This document shows, one piece after another, positions 5,726 to 62,257 of a DNA stretch of 64,000 nucleotides. Location: NCBI GenBank assembly GCA_951230915.1, contig OX579640.1, positions 20,542,981-20,606,980 on the forward strand, written 5' to 3'. Within the stretch, counting starts at the first letter, position 1, and the number at the start of each line of letters is the position of its first letter. The notes below the pieces were generated by a model. The model was not told the origin of the DNA. It saw only the letters and a program-made list of their open reading frames with translations, and did no database searches. The translations under genes and the position numbers were made by a program. The stretch comes from Antitrichia curtipendula. Its lineage: Eukaryota; Streptophyta; Bryopsida; Hypnales; Leucodontaceae.

Positions 5726-6260
5726 GGGTAACACTATTTCTCACCCCTCATTGATGGGACTGGCAGCTGTAGAACTCTGGCTGGCCCTCTTGTCGCCTAC
5801 TGACTGCAAGAAGTTGTTTTACTGGACTGACTGGTGGCAGGCCACGGGGCACTTCTTTTTATCCAACCTCCCCACTGCCGGGGTAAATTACAAACCAATG
5901 TTTCGGCGACCACATGGCCATGCAGCATGCGCTTCCCATCATGGATGTCCAGCATGCTCCACCATACATGCGTGGCCACTGTTCCGAACACTATGGTGTT
6001 TCGGACGTTGACCACCTCGAAATGCGAGCCTAGTGTTCTGCAGCCTGTGACGGCAGACAAACGACGGTTTAGGGTTTAGGGTCCATTCTCATGATTGCGG
6101 GGCAGAAATTCCAAGCTAGGGTTGTAGGTTCAGGGTTCTTCAGGGCGCATTCGTGTTGTGTTTAGGTTCGATTTGGTTTAGGGTGCAAAGTTTGTATCCA
6201 TGACAGTGTTTTGCAGCCTGTGACGGCAGAGAAGCGACGGCTTAGGGTTTAGGGTTGACT
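5726..6260 (+). repeat. Left terminal inverted repeat of the MULE
   Basis: About 535 bp that reappears almost base for base, inverted, at 29847-30380. It begins GGGTAACACTATTTCTCACC and runs inward through GTGACGGCAGACAAACGACG to TTTAGGGTTTAGGG. Open frames across it on both strands are mirrored at the other end and are best read as repeat shadows, not genes. Confidence 0.88.
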
Positions 6261-6530
6261 CTCACGATTGCAGGGTAGAAAATCCAAGCTGTGGTTGCAG
6301 GTTCGGGTTCTTGAGGGCGCATTCGTGTTGGGTTCTCCTCTGATTTGGTTTAGGGTGCAAAGTTTGTATCCAGGACAGTGTTCTGCAGCTTGTGACGGCA
6401 GAGAAGCGACGGCTTAGGGTTTAGGGTCGACTCTCACGATTGCGGAGTAGAAAATCCAAGCTGTGGTTGCAGGTTTGGGTTCTTGAGGGCGCATTCGTGT
6501 TGGGTTCTCCTCTGATTTTGTTTAGGGTGC
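6033..6530 (+). repeat. Subterminal tandem repeat, three ~173-bp units
   Basis: Units start at 6033, 6206 and 6378 with GTGTTYTGCAGCYTGTGACG, continue through TTTAGGGTTTAGGGT and GGGCGCATTCGTGTTG, and end at TTTAGGGTGC; the third unit diverges after about 6530. The right end of the MULE carries only about one and a fraction of this unit. Subterminal tandem repeats of this kind are commonly transposase-binding regions, but that role is inference here. Confidence 0.8.
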
Positions 6531-6568
6531 CCATTTGTCGTTCCAAGACGGCCATACAACAATTCCAC

Positions 6569-9500: not shown

Positions 9501-9977
9501 CAAATGGCGGAGGGGACTATTGCCAGACACTGCGGAGCTCTGAAAGGGATAGCGCGGGCAGGTCTGGGAAACGCGTTCACGTCTGGGCAATTATCAGATG
9601 CATCGGGTGGATCCAGTCTACATTCGAAAGCCACTGGGTCGCCTTCTGAAACTACAACAGGGGTGGTGACGGCTTGAAGCACAGCGGACTTTCAGACTAC
9701 TTTGACAGCGCAAGCCCGGGATATTGTGGTTTTCGTTTCGGGGAACACTACTCTAATGGACCATCTGCACGCGGATTTGCACAAACTAGCTGGCAAGATG
9801 AAGATGTTGGCCAATGACATGAAGGCAGGCATTATCCACTCTGAAAGGGCCAATCTAGTGTTTCATCAGGTTCAGGATGGTTTGGGTATGCGGCTTGGTC
9901 GCATGAAAGACATGCTGGAGAGGAGTAGACCACCTGTATACAGAAGGTTACGTCTGGGAGGGGAGTCTCCTAATTAA
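6569..9977 (+). CDS. MULE transposase with SWIM zinc finger (probably defective)
   Basis: Cut-and-paste transposase of the MULE. The start is uncertain; ATG 6569 is the best candidate. A phase-consistent intron at 6871-6969 joins into the motif ARYHCQYGPQ. A Lys/Arg-rich stretch follows to about 7690, then a zinc-binding-like block (CQASF...HVNGDG...CHG). The catalytic region shows SLDATFGTN (first Asp, ~8258), VFDEWHNGVP, FIVDCAQGE (second Asp, ~8570), then after intron 8606-8779 FLCLWHVHRAW and NAAVESYH (likely Glu, ~9105). The SWIM finger CSC...CKH is at ~9427-9485. A last exon after an intron near 9660-9695 probably gives a coiled-coil tail ending at 9977. Damage: a run of nine G at 7701-7709 breaks the frame (one extra G would restore it), and the acceptor before FPLYTVMVF (~8416) reads CAA where CAG is expected. 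A homopolymer sequencing error could explain the first. Confidence 0.8.
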
Positions 9978-11037
9978 CATACAGGTGTGCGCGGAGCTAG
10001 CTGGACGCAGCTTCTGCAGGTTTGGGTTAGGGTTTAGGGTTTAGGGCGTGGCGAGAAATTACTTGTGCCAACAACTCCGCATACAATGGGTACAATGAAC
10101 GGGAGCCGTGTCTGCTCCGACCTTGGCGTTTAGGTACCGTAGGGCTTCAAGGCTGAGCACGTGCTTGCAATATAATCTTGTGACGCAAAGTAGAGTGGAA
10201 CACTACACTTCTCCAGGTCTCTCATTCAAATGTCTCTCAATGCATGCCGGATTATGTGTCCATCCAACAATGTAAATGAATGAAGGCAAAGTGCACTGTT
10301 TCGCTCCTACTGGTCTACAAGCGTGAGATTGTCGAAGTGTCATACTCTGATGCTTTATGGTTAACAACATAATCCCAAATCATAATTCTGGATTGCCGAG
10401 TTCATATTCACAAGGCACTGCCCAATAGTACATTGAACTAAGAGAAATGTCATCTGAACGTACGCAGCAGCGAGTGTCTCCCTTTGCTGTGACGGCAGAC
10501 AAGTTCCTTAGCGACTACCGAATCCGGATACTGGAACCTCTATTGTCATCTAAAATTTCAAAAAATGAATTCGACACTGTGATGCACAAAATACAGCTAT
10601 CACTGAAGCCTTCACCCATATCACAATATCCTCAAGGTCAAGGTTTGGGAAGGTCTCATATAACCTACAAACATACATTCTGCACTGGCTTCACTGATTT
10701 CATGCAAAGTCTAGAAAGGGGCGAGGAATACGACTGACCAAAATACAAAGCAAACTATAATGCACAGAACACTATGCAAGTAACTACTGCTAAAATATCC
10801 ATTTGTGCAATGGTAGCCACGGTTTAGGGTCCAGAAGTTTATTACATATAAACGTTCATGTTAGTGAACCCTTTCTGTCAAGGACTAATATCTAAGGCGA
10901 ACACACCCGAATCCGCCTGCGCTACATTCACCACACTACAACGGGGCAAAGTCCTTTTACTGGTACACCACATAACCCCTGATACACTGGCGGCACTGTA
11001 GTGTCTCACTGACTAAGCACAAAGCAAACAAAAACAT
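9978..11037. other. Convergent intergenic region of the MULE
   Basis: Apart from the small frame at 10447, this holds a short telomere-like stretch (GGGTTTAGGGTTTAGGG near 10026) and presumably the 3' ends and polyadenylation signals of the two convergent genes. No repeat or RNA gene was recognised. Confidence 0.5.
10447..10740 (+). CDS. Small unrecognised ORF between transposase and Ulp1 genes
   Basis: An uninterrupted 96-residue frame from ATG 10447, opening MSSERTQQRVSPFAVTADKF and ending EEYD at a TGA. Composition is normal for a soluble protein, with no signal peptide, membrane span or motif I recognise. It lies in the 1-kb gap between two convergent transposon genes and has GC content like theirs. 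It could be a MULE accessory exon or chance. Confidence 0.25.
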
Positions 11038-14000
11038 TTATTCGGAGTCGGCCGCTTGGGACAAAATGGACTTCGAGTACTTCACGCGGTATGGAGCCTC
11101 GTACTCCTCCGATGGAGGTCCCGCAACGAGCTCCTCAGACACTGCCCAGATGACGTTCTTCTGCAAATCACGACCGCATTGAAGGGATTCTACTTGGTGT
11201 TGAAAAATGGACCAAGCCAGTGCCGGATCTTCACGCTTCTGCTCGCCGTAGAAGACCCGCAAATACGACTCGACGTACCAAATAACAAAGAAGCCGCACT
11301 CATATGTCCCCGCCTGCCCGAAACACTTCACTTCCTCCCACGTCGGGGGCAAGGTCATCCGCGGCTCGTGCAGCTTCTCCCACACAGATCGAACCCGGGT
11401 GAAAAACTGCAGGTCTTGAGTCTCGTTGTGGCAGCTCGAACTGTCCAAGTGAAGCACTCGCGTCCGTGTGAGGATGAAAAGCAACCAATGTGAGCCGCTG
11501 CTGTAAGGAACCAGCACCTCCAAGTCATCAGGACAATGCTCGAACAAACGCCTCGGGACCAAGAATGTGTGGCCCCATTTCAAGAGGGCCTCCTCTGTAC
11601 CCGCGTCCCAAGCACTGAGAAGGGGCTGTTGCAAGAAGGACGATGCCACATACACCTTCCGCCGTGCAGCTGGCGAAACACTGAACCACAATCGGCGAGT
11701 GAGCAGCTCTACGACGTTTTGTCCCAAGAATCGCGAAGTCTTCGCAAGATCGCGAATGTGGGATATGGGCACTGGCACGGAGTCCAACTTGCTGCTGTAG
11801 AAGTAGATCATGCCCTCGTCTGTATCCCCCGCACCTTTACTGCAAAAAACACAGTCATGATTACTTCCAATGTTCCGCAATTGCGTGGTGGATTCCACAA
11901 GTACACTACATGGCGACGACATGGGAAACAGCAGAGGGGAGAGGGAAACCGTACCAAGGCAGCTTCTCCATGAGCTCCTCCACCTTCATGTTGTCATATG
12001 TCATGTCGATTCCGACGCGCTGCCAAGTCTTCAGGAACAACTCCCCGACCGGTAGGGGAGTGAAAGTCACGGATTGTGCGTGACGAAACACAAACGAAGG
12101 GTCTGGAGCATTGTCCTCGTGCAGCTGCCTTGGCCTCAACGGCTCGCCGTCGGTGTCGTGGCCAGTCGTGGTGGGGTGCTTTCCGGTCGGACTCGCAAGG
12201 CCTTCAAACTCGGGATCAAGGTTCCTCTGCGATGCACTGAGGAGGTGCAAAACGCCCAGTCGATCATGGCTGGACTTGGCAACAATCCCGACGAGTTCGG
12301 CAGGGGTTTGCGACGGGGACAATCCGGCGATGTCCAAATCCTGGGTTTGGATGTCATCGACTAAGATCTCCCGCTGCATCTGAGAGGCTGCCACCTCATT
12401 CGGCTCTACTCCTGCATCCAGCACCCCTGCGTCGACAGTGCCGCTGTCGAGGTCCGAAAATACCTCGCTAACACGCACCGGGGGTACCATCTCGTGACAT
12501 GCTTCCTCACAGGCACCAGGTTGTGCCACCTCGCCAGCCCAGGCCGCCCTGTCGTCTTCCTCAAATGCACCCTCCAACTGCGCCACCAATCCCGCGATTT
12601 GCGCACGGATGTCTTTCGCGCGCATAGCCCAAGGCGGTTGCTCCGCTTCCGCTACCCAGCCGATGTCGCTGTCTTCACGCACCCGAAGACAGCGACCCCA
12701 AAACTTTGATTGGTCCCCCCAGTGCTCGTGCAGTGTCGTCTTCCAACACGTTCGAAACATTGTAGGGTGGTGCAGCACGAGGTCCTGCAACGCCCGGATT
12801 CGCACGTTCTCAATCCAATGCATGACTTCGTCGAGCACACTATCGTCCTTCCCACCTGCAACGAGCTGCGAATACTTCATAACTGACTGCTGCACCGCAT
12901 GTGGGTCCCAATTCCGCAGGCCTGTGAATTGGAAAGGGGCCTCGCACAGGAATACACCCAGGGCTCGCAGGATGTCGTTCTGGCTCCTACACATAGCACG
13001 CACCAACGCCCTACTCACGCCGTGGAGAGGACACGACAGTTGCCTGAACCGCCCGAAGGCAGCGTTCATGGCTATGCGCAACACACGCACGAAGGGTGGT
13101 GGTCGCAGCGCTGGCACTCGTGCCGCCAACAAGATGCGCCGCACTTCATCGGCCTCTTTGTCTGCCAAACCGCAAACGACAGTCCATTTCAGAACACTGG
13201 AACTCACACAAAACATTGTGCGCAAGAAACACAGGAGTGGAATGGACCGGAAATTGACTTACCGTCGTGGCGCCAGGGCAGTGGCGGCAATTTGTGGAGG
13301 ACGTTCACCTGCGACACTACATACCAGATTGGGCACCAATCCCACAAGTAACTCTCGCGTCGAAATGCAGTGTCTCGACGGAATTGTTGTACAGCATCCT
13401 CGACCATCCGCTCCTTGGTTCGCCGGACCTCCGCACACCATTCTTCGTAAACGATGCAATCTGAGAGGTACTGCAAATACTTCGCGAGAAGTTCCATCTC
13501 TAGTGGAACTTCGCGGTACTTCACTGATTTGCACAGGGAAGCCACGGCGCGGCCTATTAAACTGCTGACCCCGGGGTAGTCTTCTTCCTGTACAATGTGA
13601 ACAACAAATTAGACACCTGAATCCAGCAGACACAACACGCACACGCAACACGCAAGACGCACACAAAACAGTGTCTTACCTTGGCCTCACACGACCACCA
13701 CATCGCGCACAGGCGCACATCCTGTTGGAACTGCTCCGCGTGCCACGCCGTGGAGAAGGACCTTCTGAACTCCTCCGCCGTCTGTCTCGCGTACTTCCAG
13801 CTCAGAAGCGTCGGCCTCGCTTGGACGAGGTGATACACGTCGGGTGTTGGTGTCCTCGCCGGTGGTTTGGGCTTTGGGGACAACGCTGCCACGGCGTCCG
13901 CCTTCACTCGTGCAGCGACACGAACTTCGACCTCGTCCCGCTCCAGTTGCGTGGCACGTCCAATGTTCGTGTTCTCCAAGCCAGGGTGGTACCTCTTAGC

Positions 14001-16457
14001 CTGTGGGGAGCCAACCCAATACATCCAGTAGCGCTGGAGGGCGTGATTCCCCTCGTAATGTCCCGTCCACGGCACTACGTCCAAGCGCACGTCCTGACTC
14101 TGTGGCTCGGCAGGCTTGACACTCGGTGTAGGGTCGCCTCTTTTCGTGCTGCGCAATTGGGCTTCGTTCTTCGTTGTGGGGCCCGTCTTCAGAGGGCTCC
14201 GTCGTGTAGTTTTGTTCCGGGAGGCCTGTCCCGCCTTCGTCGCCTGCCCCACCTCCGGAGTGCTGGGATTGTGTGCTCTGTTCTCCTTGACCTGTTTGGC
14301 ACTCGGAGGGCTACGCAGACCTGCAGTGTCTCGGTCCGGCACGGAGGGCATTGGAGTGTCGCAATCCTCTATGATGGCATCAATGAGCCTCGCCAGCCCT
14401 TCGTCCGACTCGCCGAAAGTGTCCTCTGGCCCCCCACCCAGAGTTTGTCGCACGTCACTCGGTGACAGTGGCGGGCTATTGTCTTCTTGCGGACTCACTG
14501 CAACGCCTTCCAATGTACCGCCTTTCCCTCCGCTATCGTCGGAGATGACCAGAAGTGAAGCGTTCCGCCGCGTATCCAGCGGCCCCGAAATCCTGTCGTC
14601 TGTCGTCGACATTGGGTGCCCACTAACCTTGGCCCTTTTGTGCGGGTGCGTCTACTTCGGAAGCATCCCAGCAGCGCGCTTGACCTCCCTGTCCTTGGCA
14701 ACAGCCTCCGGCGAATGAGCCTGGGCAGCCTTCGTCTTCAAGGTCCGCAACTTTCCCCACACTGGGTCCCCGACCTCTGACGGCGTCAACAAAGTCCGCT
14801 CCTCCGTGTGCCCAGTATGACCCCCCCCGGTGTGGACCTCCAGCTGCGGAGTAATTGGAGGGGCCTGCCGCGTAGGACCCCTGCCCGCCTCCTTTCCATG
14901 TTGCGGAATGGGCTCTCGTACGGGCTCGCCATGGCTTGCCTATTTCGAGGCGGTGTCTCCAGTTGTCGGACTTGGTGTCATGAAGGCATCCCGCAGACTC
15001 AACTCTGGACCTATGTCTCTGTCCGGACTGCACACCGCGCGGGCGACTGGTCTACGGTCGTGTTGAGTCTCCTGCTGCTCCTCCCTCCCCCTGAACCTGC
15101 GGCTCGCCACGCGGCCCGAGTCGGTCTCCTTGTGTTTCGCAGCGCCTCGCTCCTTAAAGGCCTTGTCTAGAATTGCGGCCACCGTCCGGAGCTCCACACG
15201 CCGCCCTGAAACAAGAGCCCTCTCATCCCCTTTCGCCGGTTGCATCCCGCCCACTGCCTCGACCTTCCCCGCGTCCCCACTTTCTCCCGCACAGGCTTTA
15301 CCCAAGCCCCCCCCCCGCCTCTGTCCGCTGCCTTCCCTGCCTCCCTACTTCCTGTCGCGGAAGGAGCGTTCGTCGCGTCCCCACTTTCTATCGCCCTTGC
15401 CTTCCCTGTGTCTCCTCTGCCCCCCGTGTTGGTCCTCCTCCCGTCGTCGTGGCCCAGCCGCTCGCCTCCAAACTCCCATTTGTCCAGTGCTTCAGTGCCT
15501 GCAATTATGCCTTTGGTGGCCTTCCTCCTGGGTCGTTGCCTGTTGGCGATCGTCTCCGCCACCGATTCCTTCCCTGCGCGCATCAATTCGGTCATCTTCC
15601 CCTGCCCTCTGCCATGGTCCGGGTAAGGTAGCAATCGCATGGGGTTCCCATCTGTGTCCTTCACTGCTTCGCACAGGGAATCCCATCGGTGCTTGTTGAG
15701 GCGCATCTTGTTGGTGAAAATGGAGAGCCCGTAGTGCACGCATCTGAAGAATTTCCTGGAAGGTTGGTTGGATCGTGGGATGTCCGTCAACGCCCTAGTC
15801 GCACACTCGTGAACCAGGAACTTGAAGTTCTCCTTTGTTCCGTAGTTCACCGAAAACAACCTCCCGTCGATTTTGACTTTCGCAAAGAAGCCTTCCTCGC
15901 CCTGTGGCTGTGATTCTTCTGTGTCCTGAGGTACTATCTTGTCATCCTGAAACTCCATCCCGCAAAGGGTTGTTAGTGTCCACCAAACCATAGACTAAAT
16001 TCTGAAATTGCATCAGTGGCGGACCCATCTGCACACCCTAAACCCCGGCATCATGTCCAATGCACCGTCTCGCAGCCATAACCACACAATGTCGACGCTC
16101 AACAACGGCACGACTCTAGGCCAGACAAGTAACATGTAAAACATTGAAACCCACCTGAAAATCCGAGTCGTCCGAGCCTTCACGGCTACTCCTTTCGTCA
16201 ACCTCGAGCTCATAGTCGTTGTCTAGTGTCGCCTCTCTCTGCACTCGCGCAGCCTTGGTCTTCGTCATGTCGCAGCAGTACGTCACCTTTGCCCCGACTC
16301 CTGCAAAGGTGAACCAATTTCTGAATCCAATGTGCTCACCCCAACGAAACACTGGTTTATAGTAGAAGTAATAGTCCGAATACTGCCCAGAACTTAACAT
16401 CGACCCTAAACCCTGAACCCTCGGCAATCGGGAGAAACTACCAGTGGCCAACCTCAA
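11038..16457 (-). CDS. MULE-borne gene with C-terminal Ulp1/C48 SUMO-protease domain (probably defective)
   Basis: Long gene on the minus strand, convergent with the transposase. The last exon (about 11855 down to 11038) carries the C48 catalytic set in order: His in SGSHWLLF (~11490), Asp in LHLDSS (~11445), Gln in FGQAGTYECGFF (~11316) and Cys in the same motif (~11298). This fold cleaves SUMO or ubiquitin-like conjugates. Upstream exons are about 13214-11950, 13587-13263, 15305-13680, 15953-15167 and 16457-16156 (which ends in an acidic DDSDFQ). The long N-terminal part is Arg/Ala/Gly/Pro-rich with no known domain. Breaks: two in-frame TAG codons (14940-14942 and 14652-14654) and a shift near a C-run at ~15309-15319. 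Introns could remove some of these. MULE-associated Ulp1-like genes are known in flowering plants; the role in transposition is unknown. Confidence 0.72.
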
Positions 16458-18054
16458 TGGTGCGAAACTACCAGCGGCAAACCTCTAAATCCGCACATGT
16501 GTCTTGCAAACAAAATCTGTGCACGTGGGGTTTAGGGACCGCCTGTCTTCCGGTATGGAGCCTACCGGATCGACAGAGCACACCATTACCCGAAAACTCA
16601 AACCGCAACAACACCGCACAAAAACTGAGGTTCACGCAAATATAGACCTTCATTAGCTACGCCGAATTGTTGTCTTCAGGAATGCCTTCCGCAGCGTAGC
16701 AGGCAAAAGTCCCGTCGTCCTCTACGCGTAGTTCCCCTCCGCCTCACCGCCCGCTTGCACGAAATGATAGCTCCGCGCAGTCGCATTCGAGCGTGACCTT
16801 GTTAGCCGGTGGTCCCTAAACCCTAAAATATGGGAGACGCGATTCAATATTCGCAGCCCATTCGCGCCGCCGCCTCCAACCCACACCAATACCACAACGC
16901 ACCCGCAATTGAGAATCGGCCTCCCCTCTCAGCAAAATACCAACGCTCCTCAGTTGCGTGGAGACAACGAAACACTAACATGCGAACAAACTAGGCAACA
17001 CGCGACGGGAGACGAGGAACAAGCGAGCACGAGGGTAGACCTAGACGTGTCGAACCTAACCCTGACCAAGAGGCCCGGAACACGAGGCAAACAAGGACCA
17101 GCTGAAACCGGCAGGTGTCGCAGAACACAGAACATGAGAAGGTTGACCAATGAGTGCAGTATCATCTCTGATGATTCTATATCATGAGGAAATTAAGTGA
17201 GACACTCGCACTCCACAAAATTCTAACAACCAAAGCCGTCACATCAATTGTGAGCTTGAAACCCACAATCCAAAAAGTCGATAGGCATGGTGCATCTTTG
17301 CCCCACATACCCCTCTACAAACAGTGTCTTGTAATTGAATTGCACTATTCAATTTATCCGCGGTGCTCCGACTCTCCAGAAACCGCATGTCATCCCTTGA
17401 AAATGTCTGCTTGGCTAAATACATTTGATGACTCTATCTCAAGTGGCCAACATAGGACAAAATATATTGGGCCCAAACAAAAAAAATTGTATGATTGGTA
17501 CCCTACCCCTCGAAACAGTGAATACTACCATTTATCTTCGGTCGAGTAGCCATTGTTAATTTTTTAATTATACCTAACCCTACGACTAAACTTAGTACAC
17601 ATTAAGAGATTATGTGGAATACAATTCGACACGTACCCTAAGCCCCGTCGAATTAGAAGATGTTCTACTATCACGTGTTCTAGTATAAACATTGTAGTCC
17701 AAAATATACTCTCGTTTAAAGTTCATAAGTTCGTGAGTCCTTCAGCAGGTGAAAACATAATGCCCTATTTGAAGGTCTATTGGGATCACAAATCCCTTGC
17801 CTTCTTTTTCAAGCTTGAGTGCTCCGAAGCCCTAAACCCAATGGACTATTTGTATTCTATATGAAAGTATTTCAATACAACTTCCCAAAATACGGTTTTC
17901 GGGGCTTCACATAGTTCATAAACACATCCCCATTTCTTCGGGACTTTAAAGTATTCCTCACTCGAAAAGTCACTGTTAAAATACTTTTAAGAATGGGAAT
18001 CCTTCCCTACTTCAAAACAAAATGACCAACACAAAATTTCCTAAACTTCGCCAC
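16458..18054. other. Upstream region of the Ulp1-like gene and GC-to-AT transition
   Basis: No convincing gene. The first ~1 kb is as GC-rich as the transposon genes and contains short telomere-like CCCTAAACCC motifs (about 16385 and 16812); it probably includes the Ulp1 gene promoter. Base composition drops to AT-rich at about 17.55 kb and stays so until the right TIR. Confidence 0.5.
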
Positions 18055-19330
18055 CATTGTTCCCCATTTATTTGTGTGCTTTTGTGTGCCCCTCAACCTC
18101 AACCCAGTGATGCATTTTTTTTGGTTTGGGAGTCCTTCTACACTCCCAAACGAAATGACATTTTTTTTGTGTTTCACAATTTGGCCCCCCTTGTTCCCAA
18201 TTTATTTTGGGTGCTTTTGTGTGCCCCTCAACCTCAACCCAATGATGCATTTTTTTTGGTTTGGGAGTCCTTCTACACTCCCAAATGAAATGACTTGTTT
18301 TTGTGTTTCACAATTTGGCCCCCCTTGTTCCCCATTTATTTTGGGTGCTTTTGTGTGCCCCTCAACCTCACCCCAGTGATGCATTTTTTTTGGTTTGGGA
18401 GTCCTTCTACACTCCCAAACGAAATGACTTGTTTTTGTGTTTCACAATTTGGCCCCCCTTGTTCCCCATTTATTTTGGGTGCTTTTGTGTGCCCCTCAAC
18501 CTCAACCCAATGATGCATTTTTTTTGGTTTGGGAGTCCTTCTACACTCCCAAACGAAATGACTTTTTTTTTGTGTTTCACAATTTGGCCCCCCTTGTTCT
18601 CCATTTATTTTGAGTGCTTTTGTGTGCCCCTCAACCTCACCCCAGTGATGCATTTTTTTTGGTTTGGGAGTCCTTCTACACTCCCAAACGAAATGACTTG
18701 TTTTTGTGTTTCACAATTTGGCCCCCCTTGTTCCCCATTTATTTTGGGTGCTTTTGTGTGCCCCTCAACCTCACCCCAATGATGCATTTTTTTTGGTTTG
18801 GGAGTCTTTCTACACTCCCAAACAAAATGACTTTTTTTTTGTGTTTCACAATTTGGCCCCCCTTGTTCCCAATTTATTTTGGGTGCTTTTGTGTGCCCCT
18901 CAACCTCAACCCAGTGATGCATTTTTTTTGGTTTGGGAGTCCTTCTACACTCCCAAACAAAATGACTTGTTTTTGTGTTTCACAATTTGGCCCCCCTTGT
19001 TCCCAATTTATTTTGGGTGCTTTTGTGTGCCCCTCAACCTCACCCCAATGATGCATTTTTTTTGGTTTGGGAGTCCTTCTATACTCCCAAACGAAATGAC
19101 TTGTTTTTGTGTTTCACAATTTGGCCCCCCTTGTTCCCCATTTATTTTGGGTGCTTTTGTGTGCCCCTCAACCTCACCCCAGTGATGCATTTTTTTTGGT
19201 TTGGGAGTCCTTCTACACTCCCAAACGAAATGACATTTTTTTTGTGTTTCACAATTTGGCCCCCCTTGTTCCCAATTTATTTTGGGTGCTTTTGTGTGCC
19301 CCTCAACCTCAACCCAATGATGCATTCTCA
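18055..19330 (+). repeat. Tandem satellite, ~9.5 units of 134-135 bp with a built-in hairpin
   Basis: The GATGCATT landmark recurs at 18109, 18244, 18378, 18512, 18647, 18781, 18916, 19050, 19184 and 19319, a period of 134 or 135 bp. Each unit carries the perfect 10-bp inverted pair GTTTGGGAGT / ACTCCCAAAC around an 8-nt loop, a T-run, and a TTTGGCCCCCCTTGTTCCC block. Units differ at a few sites (AACCCAG, AACCCAA, ACCCCAG, ACCCCAA), so the array is young but not freshly copied. Because 134 is not divisible by 3, frames run open on both strands; they are artefacts. Confidence 0.93.
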
Positions 19331-19467
19331 TACTAGTTAGGTATAAGATCCTATGGTTAGATGTGCAAAAAAAACAATTTTAATTTTTTTGCACTCTATG
19401 CTAAAAAAAATGGCAATTTTGGGTGTTTTGGGGTAGAATTTTGGCCTTGGGCCTTTAGGGGTTAAAT

Positions 19468-19695
19468 TTTTACAAATTTTTTTTTGTTGCCCCTTCTTCT
19501 TTGTTTTGAGCTTATTTGGATATAACTTTTGTTCCTAGGCACCAATTGAAAAAAGAATTAGAATCTCACAAAACTTATTAGTTTTTCCTCTTCAAAAAAG
19601 TTTCAAAAAATCAAGACAAAAATTCAGCCTATAGGTACCTGCTGGAAATCTCATTTGTCCTCCAAAAGGATAATGGTCCTTTAGGAATTAAGCTC
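19468..19695 (+). repeat. Left copy of a diverged inverted repeat pair (partner ~29048-29280)
   Basis: The stretch around GAGCTTATTTGGATATAAC, then GGCACCAATTGAAAAA, TTATTAGTTTT, GGTACCTG and CATTTGTCC, is found inverted at about 29048-29280 in the same order with moderate divergence. The inner end reads CCTTTAGGAATTAA, a degenerate form of the CCTTTAGGGGTTAA terminus. Confidence 0.7.
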
Positions 19696-21452
19696 TCCTT
19701 CAAACCTACCTCAATATACATTTTGCTTGTATCTATTGTCTATTGCTTGAAATTTGAATGTATGATCTTTTAGGGGTTATATTGCCTAATTCTAAGTTGG
19801 ATTCTACTTGAAGTCAAAAGGATTTTCTAGAGTCTTATTCCATACATTTGTTCAATAAAACTTTAAGAATCTCTCTTTGTTTTATCTTGAAATTAATAAT
19901 AAAATAAAATAAAAGTATTATTGCAATTGCATGTTCTATATGTTAAAATAAAAACAATACATTATATTTTCATGAAAGTCCTTTTTCCTTTCAAAAGGAA
20001 TTTAAAATTTAACTACAATGAAGTCTTTTATTTTAACCTTCATTTAAGGTCAATATTTCAAATTTCAAACTGTAATTTAATATGAAGTTCAAAGTCTTAA
20101 TTTAAATAAAAAATACATACTTGATTTTCTTTCTTTAAAAAATTATTAAGTAGAAGTAGGATTAAAATTAGAAAGAAAAAAAAAATTACTAATAGTTTAA
20201 AGATGGAATTGAAATATATGAATTTCAATGGTAATATATTTTAATAAGAAAATATAACCTTGTAAGAAAAATTACAAATTATAAAAACTGTATTGAAAAA
20301 TAAAACCTATAAGTTTGTTTTTTAAAAGATGTCCAAATGTCGCAAATTACATAAAATTTGAAAACCGCATTTGATACTTATAGAATTTGAATTTGAATTC
20401 ATTTACTAAATAAAAATTATAATATTAGAACAAATACAATTCCTAATGTATATTCAATATTTTGAACTCCTAAAAGGTCTACATTATCCTCAACTTTTGC
20501 TCCTAGTTACCATTTGAAATTTAAAATTATATTCCTATAAAGCTAAACTAATGTATAGATCTTATAAGAAAGTTTCTAAAAGATTTATTAAAAATTTAGG
20601 TTATACATATAAGATTCAATCTAGAAGCCATTTTGCAAAGGTCCTTTACAATTTAATTTTTTTAAATTATAGTAATTTTAGTTTTCTATTAAAAATTTTG
20701 GAAAAAATAACATACATAGACTGTATATTTTTCTACTAGCATAAAATACTAATTTTTTGTATTAATTAAATAAAGGGATAAATATTGTTTTCTATTTGAA
20801 TTTGATTTTAAGGTCTTTTCTATGGTTGTTTTGAATAAAAAATAAAATAAAAACAATTGAAATTTTTGTACACCAGCTTTTTTACAATGCAAGAAATATT
20901 AGAGATGGTAAAAAATTATTTACTTGGATATTTCTAGCCCTTGGTTTGTACAAACAAACTAGGTTTGGAGGGAATTTTTTCAAAGTTTTATTTCTTGCAA
21001 TTTTAAAAACACAAGGTTTAATTTGGTTGATTAAAAATACAAAATAATTAGAATGGTTCCAATTTTATTGAGGATGTTTTAAAAAAGTACTAATAATATC
21101 AATTATTGAATTATAAAGTTTACACAAGTACACATTTTTTAATTTTTTAAGAAAGATATTAAGGAAGATAGCATAAATTCTAAGGAAGGATCTTTCACAA
21201 AAGACCCTAAAGATAAAGAAGAAAAATTTCATGGAACAAAAGATATACCCTGTATAGAAAAATCTTAGTAAAAGTCTTATTCTTATAAAGTATTTTATTC
21301 TTCTAGTATTACTAATAATTAGGCCAAAAAACCAAAGCTTACAATGTTTACTTGACTAGTTGTAAATGTTGTAACTATCAACTATACAATTTCAAATTAG
21401 TAGCTAAATGACTACTATATAAAAAATTTAATCATAATTGACATCTCTACAC

Positions 21453-21570
21453 TTAACCCCTACAGGACCAACATCCATTTTTTGGCTACATAGAAATTTT
21501 GGATAGGTATGTGTAACTAGAGATTTCCATATTTTTGGTGAAAACATAGTCTTTGACCTTTAGGGGTTAA
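21453..21570 (-). mobile_element. 118-bp deletion derivative of the TTAA/CCCCTAAAGG family
   Basis: Bounded by TTAACCCCTACAGG and CCTTTAGGGGTTAA. Its left ~45 bases resemble the inverted right end of the 954-bp copies (shared ACCAACATCC-like, TTTTTTGGCTACATAG-like blocks), and its right end resembles their left end (GACTATG...TTTCAC). It is therefore the same element in opposite orientation with the interior deleted. Confidence 0.72.
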
Positions 21571-22529
21571 TCACTAAATGCTAGAATCCTTTTTTGAGCT
21601 TCTTAGAATTTGTTCTAAATTGTATTCAAAACCATCATTTTAACAATTTTTATTAATTTTATTTTAAATGTAACTATGTAGATTCAAAGTAGATGTGATA
21701 AAATTCACAAGGAAAAAATACATACAATAATATCACTTATAGATTGAAAGATCATAATATTTGATCATAAAAGTATTAAAACTAGAAAAGTAATTTAAAG
21801 TCTTTAAATCATCTTTTTATATGTCAAATTTCAAAAAAAATTCATTACAAAAAAAGAGAGGTTAAAGGGCATAATATGTATAACTCTAATCAATTTATAG
21901 CTTTTCAAAATTATTCAATGATTCTATTTGTTTTGTGATTTTTTAAAATGAATTTCTAATGTAACATATACTTTAAAAGATTGGTTGTACTTGAATGAGG
22001 CTAATTTTTAAAGAGCTCTGAAAACTAGAAAATCAAATTTTGCTATAGACACCCTTGTACACAATTTTGAATAAAAAAATCATAATCAATCATTTTCAAA
22101 ATCCAATTTGTAATGGTAAAACTAGACTTCAAAAGTAATTTTTAAAAATTAGAAATGACTAAAAATAGCATCTTCGTAAGGTTTTATTGAACTTCAAAAT
22201 ATTATTGGCACCATAATTTTTAAAATTGTGGAACTAAAGAAAACAATGGTTACTATACTAAGTGGAATTTCAAAACAATGTTAAGGCTTATTAGAAGATA
22301 ACTAATTCTGAAAGGGTTGCTCTATGCCAGTTCCATTGTAGAACTTTTGTGCCAGTTCCATTGTTCCATCTTCTAAATAAATGTTTAGACTTCCTCTTGT
22401 TGCTGCCATTGTAGCTTTGTCATTTGCAGAAGACATTAGCTGTGGTAACAAAGAAGTATTTGTGCTACTACTGTGACAGGAGGTGTGTTTGTTTTAGTTC
22501 CTTTTCAACATTCACTTATGGAGACTTTG

Positions 22530-22805
22530 TTTTTGAACTAGTAGTTCATAATGTGCAAAGCTTGTTTTTGAACTAGTAGTTTATAATGCGCAGAACTAGT
22601 AGTTTGTAGTGCGCAAAGCTTGTTTTTGAACTAGTAGTTTATAATGCGCAGAACTTGTAGTTTGTAGTGCGCAAAGCTTGTTTTTGAACTGGTAGTTTGT
22701 AGCGCGCAGAACTGGTAGTTTGTAGTGCGCAGAACTAGTAGTTCGTAGTGCGCAAAGCTTGTTTTGAACTGGTAGTTTGTAGTGCGCAGAACTAGTAGCT
22801 TGTTG
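22530..22805 (+). repeat. Minisatellite built on GTAGTTTGTAGTGCGCA-type units
   Basis: Five to eight imperfect copies of a composite unit combining GCTTGTTTTTGAACTAGTAG, TTTGTAGTGCGCAGAACTAG and CAAAGCTTG. Unit lengths vary (about 25-50 bp). Two overlapping minus-strand frames across it are repeat artefacts. Confidence 0.8.
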
Positions 22806-23091
22806 AGTTTGAAAAGAGGGAGCATTGACATTGGAAAGAGCCTTATCCAATAACCTTATCTCTTAGCGAAAATTTTGGATCTAAGTTCTATCTTGTGTAC
22901 ATGTTTGGCTTTTAGGGTCTATCTCTAAGCAAACTTACAGTTCAATGTAAGAGCTTTTAGTTCTATCTCTAAGCAAGCTTCTAGTTTCTCTCAGTTGAAA
23001 CATTTAGAAGCTAGCCGGCTACTACTAAAATTGTGAGCGGGACATGGAAAGCTTGTAGTATTGCAATTTTGTCCTACAAGAGGTAGTTTAA

Positions 23092-23424
<333 letters not shown>

Positions 23425-23747
23425 AGAGACGATTGCTTCTTGCGACAGAAGTGTATGCATTTTGATAAGTTTAAGTTTGGTAAAGATGGGTTTTGAACTA
23501 GAGCAAAGAGCTTTGTTGTCCTTCCAATGCCAAATCGAAACAACTCTTATGTTTGGACTCCAATATCCCAACGTTCAATGTTTTAGTTGTACTGCGTTTG
23601 TGTTACTTCTTTGTGTTGTTACTTTTGAACACATTGTATTCAAGGTTTTTGTAAGTTTGCTCTGGATTTGTGGTTAGCCTTGTGATGCAGAAGAGAGTTC
23701 AAGTAATCTTTCAAAATTAGAGCTGATGTGCAATTATCTTGATGCAG

Positions 23748-23841
23748 TGAAGCTGGGTGTGGAAAACATTGATCTACAAGGGCAACTTTGTTGTGAAGCT
23801 GGGGTGGAGAACGTTGATCTGCAAGGGCAACTTTGTTGGTA
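23748..23841 (+). repeat. Tandem duplication of ~46 bp upstream of the TET/JBP-like gene
   Basis: GTGAAGCTGGGTGTGGAAAA and the following bases through GGGCAACTTTGTT are repeated at once with small changes (GTGAAGCTGGGGTGGAGAAC through GGGCAACTTTGTT). It lies about 230 bp before the predicted start codon and may be in the 5' UTR or promoter. Confidence 0.75.
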
Positions 23842-24065
23842 TTGAGCTACATTCAAGTTACTTCTATTGAGCTTGAACATAGGTTGCATGGTTGTTACTT
23901 TTGTTGATGCTCAAATACAAGGTACATTTAGAAGTTAGCTGGCTACTTGCTAGAGGAGGCTTCAAGTATCATTGCATTGTTAGAAACAGGAAGCTTAGAA
24001 AGTACAATTGATGTATGAGTTGTATATGTTTTCCAGGAAATATAAGATTACACAAGTAATTTATT

Positions 24066-25748
24066 ATGGCATCTTCATCTGCTGAATGTACTACATCTGG
24101 GTAAGTTTTGTGTATTAATTTTTATAAGTGCAATATTTTTTTATGTTAAAATGTATTTGGTATTTATAATATTTAATACTAGACTTGAAAATCCAGTGAG
24201 GCAATTTGGCCTTTACGGTTTTTCTTGTTTTATAATATATAATAAGAATGTATAAGACTAGAAAATCCAGTGAGGCAATTTGGCCTTTACGTTTTTTCTT
24301 GTTTTATAATATATAATAAAAACATATTTGGATTTTTGGATTTTTTTGTAATGGTTATGGGGATAAAGTGAGGCAATTCGGCCTTTACATTGAACCATAT
24401 TCCATTATAGATAATATTCAAAATCACAAATCTATATTTGAATTTATACATATTAAATTTCATCCATCTGATATGTTTTTATGAAATTTTGGTTTCCTTG
24501 CAGAGATGTCAGTGGATACAATCGGAAAGAGTACTTTAAAGCTCATAAGAAGGCCAGAATGAACATCCAATTTGATGGTGTGAAATCAGAAGTGAAAGGT
24601 ATGTTTCTAAAAGAAATATAAATGAAAGAAATTTTTACAATAATTGGTTATTATATTATATATATGTATATATTTATGTGTATATATAATTAATTAACTT
24701 TATTTTTTTGGATTCATTTTTAATTATTTGTTATTAGATTGGATACTAAAAATGAATTGTTTAAAATGTAGGTGCCTTTATCATTCAGAAGAAACGAAAT
24801 CTTGAGAATCTGCATAACGTATATCTGGATGTTATTCCTAAAGGCTATTATCGAATTTATGGCCATGGATTGATGGTTGTTCAAGATAAAACAACACATG
24901 AAATAGTATTAGTTGTGAAATGCACACCTTTTAACAAAATGAAAGTTGATGAATACAATGAGTATGAAAAGGTAACCACTACTCTAATAAATATGAAGAA
25001 AGGCGCAAGTAATATAAAAGATAATGCTCCTCTTCAAACAGGTATAATGTTTGGACTTGGATGGAGAAGAAGGCGTGATAAACATTTGACTTTTGGTCAT
25101 TATGTTCCAAGTGCACAAGTCCAAAAACATATTTCAAGTCTTCATCTTTGGAAGGAACAACAAAACTTGCTCACAGAAATTTCTTCAACTTATGGCAAAA
25201 AAATTTGTGGATTAGCTCCCTCTTTATTTGACCAAGCCAAAACAGAAGTAAAAAATGCAAAAGTACCAAGTCTATCACAAACTGAATTTAGCATCTTATA
25301 TAGAGAAGAAGGAGCTTTTTCTAGTTGTTTAACATATACTTTAAAAGATTTTAGTAATTATTTTCATATAGATAATGATTTTAATTCCTATACTTTTGGT
25401 TTATGGGCTCCAATATCTATTGATGATGGAAAGTTAAAAAGTAAAGAAAACGGATTTGAAAGTGTGGGGGGCCAATTTCTTTTAGGTAGTTATAAAGTCT
25501 GTGTGGATTTTAGTAAATGTGATGGAATAGTAGAAGTTATTTGGAGAAGTAAAAAAGATTTTCATTGTACACTACCATCAGTAACCAATCCTAATTACAC
25601 AAGGTTAGGAACATCTGCACAGGTTAGTGAAGTATTAGTTTCAAGATTAAAAAAATTAATTGAAGAACATAGGGATGGTAAAGATATTAGTAAAAAATAT
25701 AGAGGTGTCAATGAAATAATAGAGTTAAAATTAGAAAAAGCAAAATAA
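24066..25748 (+). CDS. TET/JBP-like 2-oxoglutarate/Fe(II) dioxygenase (putative 5-methylcytosine oxidase)
   Basis: Three exons, 24066-24100, 24504-24598 and 24772-25748, join with GTAAG/GTATG donors and CAG/TAG acceptors in consistent phase. They give a 368-residue protein from ATG 24066 with no stop or frameshift. The C-terminal half resembles the Tet_JBP oxygenase domain: HxD iron ligands in YFHIDND (His242, Asp244), FGLWAPI, GGQFLLGSYKVCVDF, distal His in KDFHCTLPS (His308) and a likely 2-oxoglutarate-binding Arg in YTRLGTSAQ (Arg321). Family members hydroxylate 5-methylcytosine or thymine in DNA; in fungi, TET/JBP genes travel with KDZ transposons. There is no CXXC finger and no targeting signal. 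It lies inside the MULE, is AT-rich like its surroundings, and has an NFS2 fragment just downstream. Family assignment is by motif memory and needs a profile search; an unrelated 2OG oxygenase branch is the alternative. Confidence 0.72.
24181..24320 (+). repeat. ~77-bp tandem duplication within intron 1 of the TET/JBP-like gene
   Basis: The segment containing CCAGTGAGGCAATTTGGCCT and TTTTATAATATATAATAA occurs twice in succession, and a decayed third trace (AGTGAGGCAATTCGGCCTTT) sits near 24367. It lengthens the intron and does not touch coding sequence. Confidence 0.75.
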
Positions 25749-25999
25749 AATTTGAAGTTTGATGTGGGCCTCAATGCACTCCCAACAACATCCTTTTTAT
25801 GTGCCATTCTTTCAACTATTGGGCAACAATTTGGTCTTCTTTAGTGAGGTAAAGCCACAGAGCCTTTGGTTGTTGTAGTTTGTGTGGAGTCCTTGCTAAA
25901 GCAGGTGCTTGCTTGGTGCAGAAGGGGTTTTAGGTTTTTGTGTTTGACTTGGGATAGTTTAGTTACAACTTCAATTAATTGTGGTGGTAAATTTAAATG

Positions 26000-27225
26000 C
26001 CAATGCTCATCTGAAGGAGTTAGAATTGCTTGGCTTTGGACTCACACTCTTTATGTTATGAATCTTGTCAGTTTTGAAGTTGGCATGCCTTCAATTGGAA
26101 ATGCTATTGGATTAGGAGCAGCTGTGGACTACTTGAATAGCATTGAGATGGACTATATACATGCATATGAGGTGCTTGTTTTGCTATTTTGTACTTGATT
26201 TCACTTCTTTCCTTTGTCTAGAAATAGTTATCAGTCAAGGAGAATTTTTGAGTAATTAATTTAACTATATTGTCAAAATAGCTAAAACTTGAATCCTTAG
26301 CATACTTGTATGCCAATTTCATGGCCTAAGATGTCAAGTCCTTCTGTTTGATACCAAAGTGTTCTTTTAATGCAATGGTACTTTCCATTTGTAATCTCTA
26401 CAAAAAAACGTAATTAATTTCAATGCTTTAATAGTGATTATTAATGCAAAACCACCTTTTAATATTTTAGAGATGTGATTACTTTGAGATAATAAGGTGT
26501 CAGAAGTTATAGGTCACTTATAGTATTAGAAGAAGAACTGACATGGGTTGGTGTGGCAGATGGATCTCTCAAAGTATTTGTGCAAAAGCTTGTCGAAAAT
26601 CCCAAATGTGCAAATCTATGGACCCCCATCAGATGCTGATAGATATGTATCTTTATACTCTTTTTCTGTGCAAGATGTTTGTGCCTCAGATATGTCAACT
26701 TCAATTGAAAAGGTAAACCACTTCAATTACTCTTTTATAGCTGATTTGCTATAGCAAAATCCTCCTCTTCATTCAAGCTATTGTTCCACTTGTTTTTGCT
26801 TCAATTGATCTAAAATTATGATTGGTCATTCTTTAATTTGTAGAGTTTTCATCCCAAAATGGTTAATTACTCTCAGTTAAGGGTTCAAACAAGGTCCAAA
26901 TTTTGTTGTATTGTATAATTTTAGATTGACCCTTCTTTTTGATCTAACAAAATGTTTCATAACCAATTATTCACCAAGGCTTAAAAATCCTTATAATAAA
27001 TAAAAAGAAAGGCTATAGAACTAACTGACTTTGTTGTTTAATTGATATAATTATCTTGCAGCATGGGATTGCCGTTTGATTGGGCCATCACTGTCCACAG
27101 CCTCTACATGCTTATCTAGGAGTTGGTGTAATTCTACAAGGTAGTTTGTACTTCTACACCACCACCAATGGAGTAGATAAACTTATTGAAGGTTTAAAGG
27201 ATAACATTTCTTTCTTTTCAGCATA
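26000..27225 (+). pseudogene. NFS2: Captured 3' fragment of a plastid cysteine desulfurase gene (NFS2/SufS type)
   Basis: Three consecutive pieces match the C-terminal third of plant NFS2. Piece one (~26068-26170) has FEVGMPSIGNAIGLGAAVDY, piece two (26560-26712) has IPNVQIYGPP, and piece three (from 27062) has HGIAV-stop-LGHHCPQPLHAYLG followed by SLYFYTTTNGVDKLIEGL. NFS2 is the PLP enzyme that supplies sulfur for plastid Fe-S clusters; the active-site Cys is in the GHHC motif. Introns with GTAAAC/CAG ends remain between pieces, so this is a copy of genomic DNA and not of an mRNA. A TGA stands where the conserved Arg before SGHHC belongs, and the part upstream of FEVG is frame-scrambled. The N-terminal two thirds and PLP lysine are absent. 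This is gene capture of the Pack-MULE kind. Confidence 0.78.
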
Positions 27226-29047
27226 TCAATGATTTGAGTAGGTTTCAATTAGTCTATAATTTAGCATGTAAACATAGTTAGCTAGCTCAAATACAGATGT
27301 AGAGATACATTATTCTGTCAAATGTTATATTTGATAGATTGCCCAACTTATTCAAAAACATCTTAGTTGTGCTCTTGGCTCTCTATTTTGGAATTTTATA
27401 ATATAGATGAAAGCAATCCTCTTAATGACTACCATGATGAAGACAACTTTGGGGACTTTGGAGATGAGAAGAGTAGTAGCAATGATAGTGACAACAACTT
27501 AGGGGATTTTGATCATGATGCTTCAGATGACAAGGAATACAACACAGTTGCATATAATAATGAATAAGAATTGCATTGGAGCTATTGTCTTTGATAGCTT
27601 TCTATTTGAAGTTTCTTCATACTCATCTAGCTTGCAGATGCATAGAATGCACACATGAAACTCCAACAATATAAGCAATGTTCTATTATGATATTTAGTT
27701 TTGAAAATTGAAGTAATTGCATAGCATAAGACAAACATGACTGGCTTGCTTGCATGTATAGCTGGTACTGATTGGCAATGTTTGGAACTTATCTGAATTT
27801 ATAAGTGTAGAACTTTATGCATAGTAGTGACTACCAAAAGCTAATAATATTGCACAATTCAGCTTTGGGGGCCAGATTAGTATATTAGTGCTTATACAAG
27901 TTTATTTATTGCTTGTCCTCACAGTCTTTTTTTGGTTGAGTATTCATAAAGAGGACACAAGTGTATTGGCCACAGCAAGGGTATTAAAGCTAGGATCAAT
28001 GAATGTCATTTTTATTCATAAGTAGAAATCTCCAGTAATTCCAAAAGTGAAATCAGTGGTTGCATGCTCAAATTTGTAATGGAGAAATTAAAAAAAATAC
28101 TTTATTTCTTTCTATTGGAACCATTTTGAAGCAAACGAGTGAGTATAATTTTGCAGATCTCAAATATAGTAAAATTGACAAGCTTTGTTCAAAGTGAGCA
28201 AATAAAATAAAATTCACAAGGTTTATTCTTGCACTCATAATGTGTATACATATATATATATGTATTCCTTTGAGGACTTCTCAAAAATTAGAGCTTTATA
28301 TAGTTTATCTTCAATAGTATATGTAAATTTTTTGAAAATGCCAAAAAAAATTTAATTGGCCATCAACACAGATACAAGCCTAAAATTTTGGAGTGAATAC
28401 ATAACTATATGTAGTGGTTAATTATGAAGTTAGGAATTAGTTTTTAGTTTTGTTTCTGGCTATGTAGACCCTATATTATTACTATATGCACTCTATGTCT
28501 TCATAAACATTTTATTGTACTACATTGTTGACTATAATTATTTCATGAAGTTTAAAAAAAATTCTATATCATTTGTCATAAAATCATCATCCATCAAATA
28601 ATTCATAAAAGAATTTGCAATCCATATATTATAATATCATCCATTGAGAATAACTCATCAAAGAACTTATCATATTATCAAAAAACAATTCATGTAGAGA
28701 AATAATTCATTCAACAACTACATCCATCCAGAAAATAATTCATCTAGAGCTTTCTCTTACTCCATTAAAATTTTATCAATCCAAAATGAAATTTATTTTA
28801 AGACTTTGTCTCTCATTTGTTATATTTCATCTATAGTCAACTGAAAGAGTTCAAAATAGGAAAGAAAATTACTTGGAAGATTTTAGAGGATATTTGAAAA
28901 TTTCCCCTTAGCATAGTTTTTGTAAGTTTCACTTTTAATCTTAGAAGGACATTGCAAACACTAGGTACTTTACAAATGATAGAAAATCCTTTTATATAGG
29001 ATAAAATTGCAAATGTTCATTTTTGGAATGCTCTATAAAAAATTGAA
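27226..29047. other. AT-rich interior downstream of the NFS2 fragment
   Basis: No supported gene. A 66-residue frame at 27367-27567 is simply Asp/Asn/Ser-rich. The rest is AT-rich, with a short TATATA run near 28248 and repeated CATCCATC/AATAATTCAT phrases around 28560-28750. Confidence 0.5.
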
Positions 29048-29280
29048 GGTCTTAACCTCTAAAAGCCAATTGTCCCTTTGGGGGGACAAATGGGATTTTG
29101 GGTAGGTACCAAGAGCTGAAATTTTGTAATGATTTTCCAAGAAATTTTCTACAGATAGACTAAAACTAATAAACTGTGTAGGAATATAATTTTCTTTTTC
29201 AATTAGTGCCTTGGAAAAAAAGTTATGTCCAAATAAGCTCAAGATAGGGAATAGAGGGCAGGAAAATTTTTTGGCAAGTT
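29048..29280 (-). repeat. Right copy of the diverged inverted repeat pair
   Basis: Inverted relative to 19468-19695: read on the minus strand it gives GAGCTTATTTGGACATAAC, GGCACTAATTGAAAAAG, TTATTAGTTTT, GGTACCTACC and CCCATTTGTCC. It starts with TTAACCTCTAAAAGCC, a degenerate family terminus. The two copies bracket the 9.4-kb segment containing the TET/JBP-like gene and the NFS2 fragment. Confidence 0.7.
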
Positions 29281-29846
29281 TTTGTTTTTTTCTTAATTTT
29301 TTTTCTTATAGGTTATATTTTTGTTTATCTAGAAAGATTTGATTCATGTCATTTGGATTTTTTATGAGAAAGTTATGGACAATCTTGTTTTTGGAAACTT
29401 GGAGCATCTTTCTACAAAAAATATTTTGTAGGATTCATTTTTGAATGCAATTTTAATAATTTTTCCAAAAAAATGTTTGAAAAGATTTAGTTTCTTTCTT
29501 AGAAATTTCACCATTGTAATTAGTGCTTTTTTATTCCATATAAAAGATATTAATATTTTAGATTTTCCTTCTATCTTGTACCTACTTCTACTTTAAAAAC
29601 TTTTTTAATAATGAAAATTAAGATTTTTGGAAATTTTTTTCCCCCTAGATCCTCAATTCAATTTTCTACTATAAAGACTTAAAGCTTAAAACTGTAGTGC
29701 AAAAAATTAAAGCTAAAAATGTTCAAAGTCATGAAATCTTGTCCTACAATGTACTGAGAAACTTGCTTTTTTCATTTCACTTTAAACATAGATATCTTGC
29801 AATCTATGGAATCAAAAATTCTAAAAAATATTCCACACATTCTCAT
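29281..29846. other. AT-rich segment abutting the right TIR
   Basis: AT-rich DNA without coding content, joined directly to the inner edge of the right TIR. In contrast to the left end, there is no array of 173-bp subterminal units here. Confidence 0.5.
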
Positions 29847-30380
29847 AGTCGACCCTAAACCCTAAGTCGTCGCTTCTCTGCCGTCACAGGCTGCAAAACA
29901 CTGTTCTGGATACAAACTTTGCACCCTAAACCAAATCGAACCTAAACACAACACGAATGCGCCCTGAAGAACCCTGAACCTACAACCCTAGCTTGGAATT
30001 TCTGCCCCGCAATCATGAGAATGGACCCTAAACCCTAAACCGTCGTTTGTCTGCCGTCACAGGCTGCAGAACACTGGGCTCGCATTTTGAGGTGGTCAAC
30101 GTCCGAAACACCATAGTGCTCGGAACAGTGGCCACGCATGTATAGTGGGGCATGCTGGACATCCATGATGGAAGCGCATGCTGCATGGCCATGTGGCCGC
30201 CGAAACATTGGTTTGTAATTTACCCCGGCAGTGGGGAGGTTAGTTAAAAAGAGGTGCCCCGTGGCCTGCCACCAGTCAGTCCAGTAAAACAACTTCTTGC
30301 GGTCAGTAGGCGACAAGAGGGCCAGCCAGAGTACTGCAGCTGCCAGTTTCATCAATGAGGGGTGAGAAATAGTGTTACCC
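29847..30380 (-). repeat. Right terminal inverted repeat of the MULE
   Basis: Inverted near-identical copy of 5726-6260. Read on the minus strand it starts GGGTAACACTATTTCTCACC and ends at CTTAGGGTTTAGGGTCGACT. It has accumulated a handful of substitutions relative to the left end, for example TGATGAAACTGG against TGATGGGACTGG. Confidence 0.88.
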
Positions 30381-30777
30381 TACCCGCGGTATCAAGTAAA
30401 CGACCGAGAGATACACGGCCAAGAGATCACACTGTAACAAACACAGAACAAACTAACAGACAACGGCAGTTGATCAGATTATCAGAGTTCCCGACACCAA
30501 GAATAAACAACTAATATCGTTTTAATACATCCTGCTCTACAATACATGGTACAAGCCAATATAAATTAGGCCCTTGAATTGTACATCACACAAGAGAGTG
30601 ATGTTTCCGTGGTACTTTGAGTAGACTACCCCTAGGCCTTTTTTGATAGCTTCGCCTGTCAAAGTTAAGGGGCCCTCTCAAAGAATCAAATATCCTCTAC
30701 TGCTATAGCCAACACGCTGGAGGAACCACTTCGGTGGCAATTGCTACTCCAAAAAGAATCCGCAGAAATGATAAGAA
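30381..30777. other. Interval between the MULE end and the kinesin stop codon
   Basis: Begins with the presumed right target duplication (TACCCGCGG). Otherwise it is ordinary sequence that probably contains the kinesin gene's 3' UTR, since the stop codon is at 30778-30780 on the minus strand. Confidence 0.5.
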
Positions 30778-58320: not shown

Positions 58321-58867
58321 ATACATTGTAAAACCAATTTTTTGAAAAAGAGGTCTCAAATGAATGAGTGTTTTAGCTTGATCTGTCAATCTTCTATTAC
58401 AATACAGTTGAGACTATAACTTACTCAAGCACCGTCAAACAAGTCTATTGTCATTCATTAGAAGTTCCAAAACTACCTATATTTTTATTCAATTATGTTT
58501 ATATTCTACTTTAAAATGAAGGCAAATTTTAAATAATTTTAGCACTTATAGTTGTAATTATTCATCAACTTCATCCAAATAAGATTTCTTCCAACAATGC
58601 ACTTTCCAGTTTTTTCCAGTTTTTCAATAGTAATACAATTACAAAAATGCCTATTTTAAATGAAAATTCCTCCCATCATTTTAACTTAGCTGACTTCAGG
58701 CCATACATCTTAAATTTGAATGCAGTTTAAAAATCTCAAAGTTAAATATTAAATATAATTTTTTTATTTAAAGAATTATGGTTTGACAATACCTAATTAG
58801 AAGGTTGTGATACTGGAAATAGGATTTATGTTATTTCTAATTCTCAACCACAAAAAATACGCATATC

Positions 58868-58970
<103 letters not shown>

Positions 58971-61900: not shown

Positions 61901-62257
61901 TGTGGCCTACTTGAGGCAGAGAACCTCACCCAGAGGCTTCCTTTCTTTCCGCCGCAATTCACTCAAAAATTGCTTACTTTGCTTTTATTGCTCCATTTGC
62001 TCAAAGTTATGGATTGATAGTCGATAGTTTATTCTTTGCTTTGCTTTAGTTTGTTTTGTTAGTTTATCTCAAAAAACCCAAAAATATCGTTTAGTTTAGT
62101 TCGTTTTGTTAGTCTATCTCAAAAAACCCAAAAATATTCAGTCTCTTTGAATTTTTTACTTTATTTTATGGGCTAGTAAGTTTGGTTATTAAACCAGTTG
62201 GTAGTTGGATTAGTTGCCAGGAATTAGGACCAGATTAGTTAGAAACCAGAAATCAGA

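Follow-up and report, generated by a model that had tools for sequence, protein, structure and literature searches.

A TET-like oxygenase gene lies in CpG-starved DNA between the ends of a Mutator-like element of Antitrichia curtipendula

It is generally held that plants have no TET genes and that they erase 5-methylcytosine (5mC) with DNA glycosylases (PMC6949463, PMC11065753); the first of these sources, a 2019 review, words this as a general assumption for multicellular plants. In fungi, TET genes are carried by 11 lineages of DNA transposons, none of which is MuDR in the account given by Kojima in 2025, and a demethylating role has been proposed there for the transposon-borne genes but is unproven (PMC12730594). 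As only fungal genomes were covered there, nothing follows from the absence of plants from that survey. Mutator-like elements (MULEs) bearing Ulp1 and anti-silencing MULEs are both described in a 2026 review, from which the word "dioxygenase" is absent (PMC13317346). Here we describe a locus of the plant Antitrichia curtipendula, within a window (the whole stretch that was analysed) of 64,000 nucleotides from contig OX579640.1, where a coding gene for a TET-like oxygenase stands between the ends of a MULE. Both the gene and its bracketing by MULE ends are real. The locus is a direct test case for the lateral spread of transposon-borne DNA oxygenases beyond fungi and for the question of whether a plant element can edit its own silencing mark. 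Of the literature matches listed, with subscription journals mostly outside their coverage, none reports a MULE that bears a TET gene. The abstract of Iyer et al. (2014) reportedly tells of lateral transfer of TET/JBP genes to Viridiplantae, and the paper is not known to mention an association with MULEs; if that transfer holds, a plant TET gene as such would not be new.

The TET-like gene lies on the forward strand and comprises three exons, at 24066-24100 (with the predicted start ATG), 24504-24598 and 24772-25748 of the window. The spliced frame has 368 residues and a stop, and both introns are bounded by GT..AG. A sequence-only reading of this stretch had proposed such a three-exon frame, and the proposal was borne out, as the exons join properly and exon 3 has a longer frame than chance would give. 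From stop to stop this frame measures 327 codons. When 1000 first-order Markov sequences were built from 23501-26200 and the longest frame of each was taken, the median was 86 codons and the maximum 198. Exon 3 is further supported by a Pfam match and by catalytic residues. Exons 1 and 2 are predictions without homology support, being outside the Pfam match and covered by none of the nine relatives that we found.

Exon 3 matches PF20515, the "Tet-like 2OG-Fe(II) oxygenase superfamily" (2OG, 2-oxoglutarate), over model positions 4 to 211 of 211, with an E value of 5.3e-46 and a score of 157.7 bits against a curated cut-off of 27 bits. The 2-His-1-carboxylate triad and the 2OG-binding arginine of this superfamily are all present in the spliced protein: the histidine and aspartate of the HxD motif are H242 (25365-25367) and D244 (25371-25373), the distal histidine is H308 (25563-25565), and the arginine is R321 (25602-25604). 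These are the positions that the sequence-only reading had pointed out, together with the blocks FGLW and GGQFLLGSYKV, which are also there. The same reading had assigned the protein to the Tet_JBP oxygenases. The profile search placed it in no unrelated family, and the TET-like part of the assignment stands on the PF20515 match; the canonical Tet_JBP model (which we take to be PF12851) was not listed at E<=10 for any of the 10 family members, in a search where HMMER filters drop most weak matches. On whether the protein would share the double-stranded beta-helix fold of TET2/NgTET1, AlphaFold2 returned low-confidence models, with a mean predicted local distance difference test score of 31.8 from a 5-sequence alignment and 35.6 from a 10-sequence alignment. 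Sequence searches of solved structures gave no TET among their matches, two runs yielding 6 matches at E>=0.32 and 5 at E>=0.12 and the others none.

Relatives of the TET-like protein are few. Among 5.8 billion proteins, a search with the single sequence found one, a two-sequence profile four and a five-sequence profile nine, all of them fragments from metagenome assemblies. No relative was found in the phages collection, in viral_contigs (246 pattern stretches, none confirmed) or in genome_contigs (94 pattern stretches, none confirmed). All ten family members, the protein of the window included, match PF20515. In their alignment the arginine is present in every row and the distal histidine in 9 of 10; the HxD histidine is kept in all seven rows that cover it, and the aspartate in five of these. 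The relatives P0004 and P0005 have lost the aspartate, and P0005 also lacks the distal histidine. Since the catalytic residues are kept in some rows and lost in others, the family holds both live-looking and decayed copies, P0004 and P0005 being the decayed ones.

The element is delimited by terminal inverted repeats (TIRs) at 5726-6260 on the forward strand and 29847-30380 on the reverse strand, which are 96.4% identical over 535 columns, with 18 substitutions and 1 indel. The 9 bp directly outside them (5717-5725 and 30381-30389, forward strand) agree at seven of nine positions, a level that 0.2% of random pairs of 9-mers from the window reach, and may be an imperfect target-site duplication; duplication lengths of 8, 10 and 11 bp gave 2, 5 and 2 matches, respectively. 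Between the TIRs, on the forward strand, lies a MULE transposase (7675-9677, with exons as joined at 7675-8286, 8376-8605 and 8780-9677). Its spliced product matches PF10551 with 38.8 bits against a cut-off of 27.6 (E=1.3e-9), and a SWIM match remained below the Pfam cut-off. Of the features of the Mutator superfamily, a transposase domain and long TIRs are present, and the 9 bp with seven identical positions may answer to the usual target-site duplication of 9 (8-11) bp. Nine consecutive G (7701-7709) mark a change of frame in the transposase, which may be due to a mutation, a sequencing error or an intron. On the reverse strand at 11038-11985 is a Ulp1-like C48 protease frame, whose Pfam match (E=0.011) is below the cut-off; it retains HW, LDS, Q and ECG motifs, which are presumably the C48 catalytic set. 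The claim that the oxygenase gene is carried inside a MULE holds in so far as the gene stands between MULE TIRs, with the 7/9 near-duplication and the PF10551 transposase. Its carriage as a gene of the MULE found no support, in view of the CpG-starved segment in which it is embedded and of the pseudogene next to it.

This segment, 18044-29846, directly abuts the right TIR. The ratio of observed to expected CpG (o/e) reaches 0.84 in 5726-18043, and the right TIR has 0.63; in the segment it is 0.12 (18044-19326), 0.05 (19327-22174), 0.48 (22175-23090), 0.30 (23430-24065), 0.31 (the TET-like gene) and 0.04 (25749-29846); GpC o/e across the blocks is 0.71 to 1.64. The compositional edge coincides with the inner border of the right TIR: the segment has its final CpG at 28136, and none follows until 29850. 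The GC content at third codon positions (GC3) is 0.19 in the TET-like gene, whereas the transposase has 0.56 and the Ulp1-like frame 0.65, and the TET-like gene also differs from the MULE's own genes in CpG counted against GpC (Fisher P 0.003). Because both CpG o/e and GC3 differ, the segment has a history other than that of the MULE's own genes. A six-frame Pfam scan of 16000-29900 gave only two families above cut-off, PF20515 and Aminotran_5; PF22787 (E=0.0011) and PF10882 (E=0.073) were below it and were set aside. The Aminotran_5 matches are cysteine-desulfurase-like pseudogene fragments on the forward strand at 25848-27184, with introns and a stop.

Several repeats were seen in this segment. 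Its left edge is formed by tandemly arrayed units of about 134 bp (18044-19326). Upstream of the TET-like gene, 22535-22803 consists of short units of 23 and 35 bp repeated in tandem, most of which contain a CpG, and a long (GT)n run occupies 23093-23424, about 0.6 kb before the predicted start. Within intron 1, a unit of 50-74 bp is repeated in tandem as three partial copies (24181-24416).

We infer that the TET-like gene belongs to old, long-methylated host DNA that was captured by the MULE or brought along in one insertion, a reading that we hold tentatively, at somewhat less than even chances. The element would then read TIR, transposase, Ulp1-like gene, a captured segment of about 11.8 kb and TIR, and the TET-like gene would be a passenger rather than a core MULE gene; it is more likely a passenger than a gene of the MULE. 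One insertion is supported because the TIR ends are inverted and carry the 9-bp near-duplication at their outer edges. A desulfurase-like pseudogene beside the TET-like gene is what would be expected if the segment is captured host DNA. Three points weigh on the other side. The flanking duplication has two mismatches in nine positions, whereas about 0.3 would be predicted from the TIR divergence. A capture of 11.8 kb would be very large for a MULE. Finally, the segment is no exact fit to ordinary host intergenic DNA, as its right part has a lower CpG content than 46001-50000, an intergenic stretch of the host (Fisher P 7e-5).

Alternatively, the bracketing may be a coincidence of two independent remnants: a MULE truncated on its right, which would span 5726 to roughly 18 kb, and another fragment whose end is the right TIR (29847-30380). 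The TET-like gene would then stand in ordinary host DNA that separates the two. This intervening DNA shares its AT-rich, CpG-poor composition with further intergenic parts of the window (CpG o/e of 0.22 at 46-50 kb and 0.27 at 40-44 kb), which would suit this explanation. The same can be said of the TIRs themselves: the match of the right one stops abruptly at 29847, whereas related subterminal repeats extend from the left one to 6530. Nevertheless, we consider two remnants unlikely, as the ends are inverted and the near-duplication falls exactly at both outer edges, for which chance gives about 0.2%.

Compatible both with capture and with two remnants is a further explanation, in which the TET-like gene was the cargo of an older, different and now eroded DNA transposon that predates the MULE. 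The 11 lineages of TET-carrying transposons in fungi (PMC12730594) provide a model for such cargo, and the decayed relatives, which have lost the HxD aspartate in 2 of 7 covering rows and the distal histidine in 1 of 10, agree with it. On the other hand, the six-frame Pfam scan of 16000-29900 revealed no other transposase domain, and no nested TIR pair with a duplication of 8 to 11 bp was found, the only two candidates having duplications of 4-5 bp (no control was run for these). On balance, an older transposon seems rather doubtful, if not markedly so. The inner inverted repeats of the segment were also tried as a nested TIR element and rejected, as the blocks 19482-19692 / 29266-29051 and 20120-20346 / 29622-29390 do not stand in mirror order; the first pair (19482-19692 on the forward strand and 29051-29266 on the reverse strand, 74.7% identical) is an old dispersed repeat.

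The most far-reaching explanation is that the MULE acquired and kept a fungal-type TET-like oxygenase as a dedicated anti-silencing gene, which would oxidise 5mC of the element's own DNA to escape silencing. Precedents exist in the TET-carrying DNA transposons of fungi (PMC12730594) and in the VANC/KIU MULEs, such as VANC of the Vandal MULEs (PMC13317346). The frame is intact and retains its catalytic residues, and the gene is less depleted of CpG than the DNA on either side, which is what would be expected of an unmethylated gene: it has 10 CpG to 33 GpC, compared to 4 to 120 in the right flank (Fisher P 2e-4) and 2 to 41 in the left flank (P 0.026). Of the ten CpGs, intron 1 has three, and the other seven belong to exons 2 and 3. 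However, reduced methylation and coding constraint would both suffice to explain this retention. CpG has also been kept upstream, in 22175-23090, where about ten of the sites come from one tandem repeat. The composition of the gene, as described above, is unlike that of the MULE's genes. Nor could the intact frame be accepted as proof of selection. In 3000 neutral simulations at the TIR divergence, with splice sites outside the simulation, the TET-like frame stayed open in 21%, and because of this the open frame does not show that the gene has been in use after the insertion. We therefore regard a dedicated anti-silencing gene as improbable.

Expression of the protein, its substrate and any effect on silencing, that is, every step beyond the catalytic residues, we infer, the oxidation of 5mC from family membership. 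If made, the protein would oxidise the methyl group on a DNA base using Fe(II) and 2-oxoglutarate, and the substrate, judging from its family, would most likely be 5mC, as proposed for its fungal relatives. In the neighbourhood of the element, such oxidation would promote the removal of 5mC through dilution or repair. Even if the TET-like gene is a passenger, it would be a candidate origin, open to test, for the oxidised cytosines whose presence in plants is disputed.

The remainder of the window holds a few other features. To the left of the element lies a RabGAP-TBC gene, and to its right a kinesin motor domain is encoded at about 35.25-36.14 kb. The stretch 57367-63698 looks like a young long terminal repeat (LTR) retroelement, as its two ends (57367-58324 and 62742-63698) are direct repeats of 958 bp with 99.5% identity; in its interior a six-frame Pfam scan gave no domain above cut-off. 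The CpG-starved segment contains short, weak matches to the LTR of this retroelement. Rfam and tRNA scans of the window gave no matches.

How the locus relates to described systems depends on which of its parts is compared. With the TET-carrying transposons of fungi (types PU, AG and PE) it shares a TET-like oxygenase gene between the TIRs of a DNA transposon, and the HxD motif is that of the PU and AG types, whereas the PE type has HxE (PMC12730594). Here the ends are of MULE type and the host is a plant. The CcTET protein of Coprinopsis cinerea has the same active-site histidine, aspartate, distal histidine and arginine (H326, D328, H376 and R385); the spacing from the HxD histidine to the distal histidine is 66 here and 50 in CcTET, and that from the distal histidine to the arginine is 13 and 9, respectively (PMC11040006). 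When residues are counted without gaps from the HxD histidine, Asp337 of CcTET, found by its authors to be essential for 5mC (PMC11040006), aligns with a glycine and Gly331 with a phenylalanine, and the former makes the substrate of the protein less certain. The Ulp1-bearing MULEs and the anti-silencing MULEs with VANC (Kaonashi, Vandal) are similar in the pairing of a MULE transposase with a Ulp1-like frame, and escape from methylation by means of a gene of the element would be an idea common to them and to our locus. They are described as non-TIR MULEs, however, and VANC is no oxygenase (PMC13317346), whereas the element here has 535-bp TIRs. Pack-MULEs resemble it in having host gene fragments between MULE TIRs, here the desulfurase-like pseudogene, and differ from it in that this element has its own transposase and a putative captured part of about 11.8 kb. 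Should a MULE turn out to use a TET-like oxygenase, it would be a MuDR-type, plant-borne case of the TET-carrying transposons.
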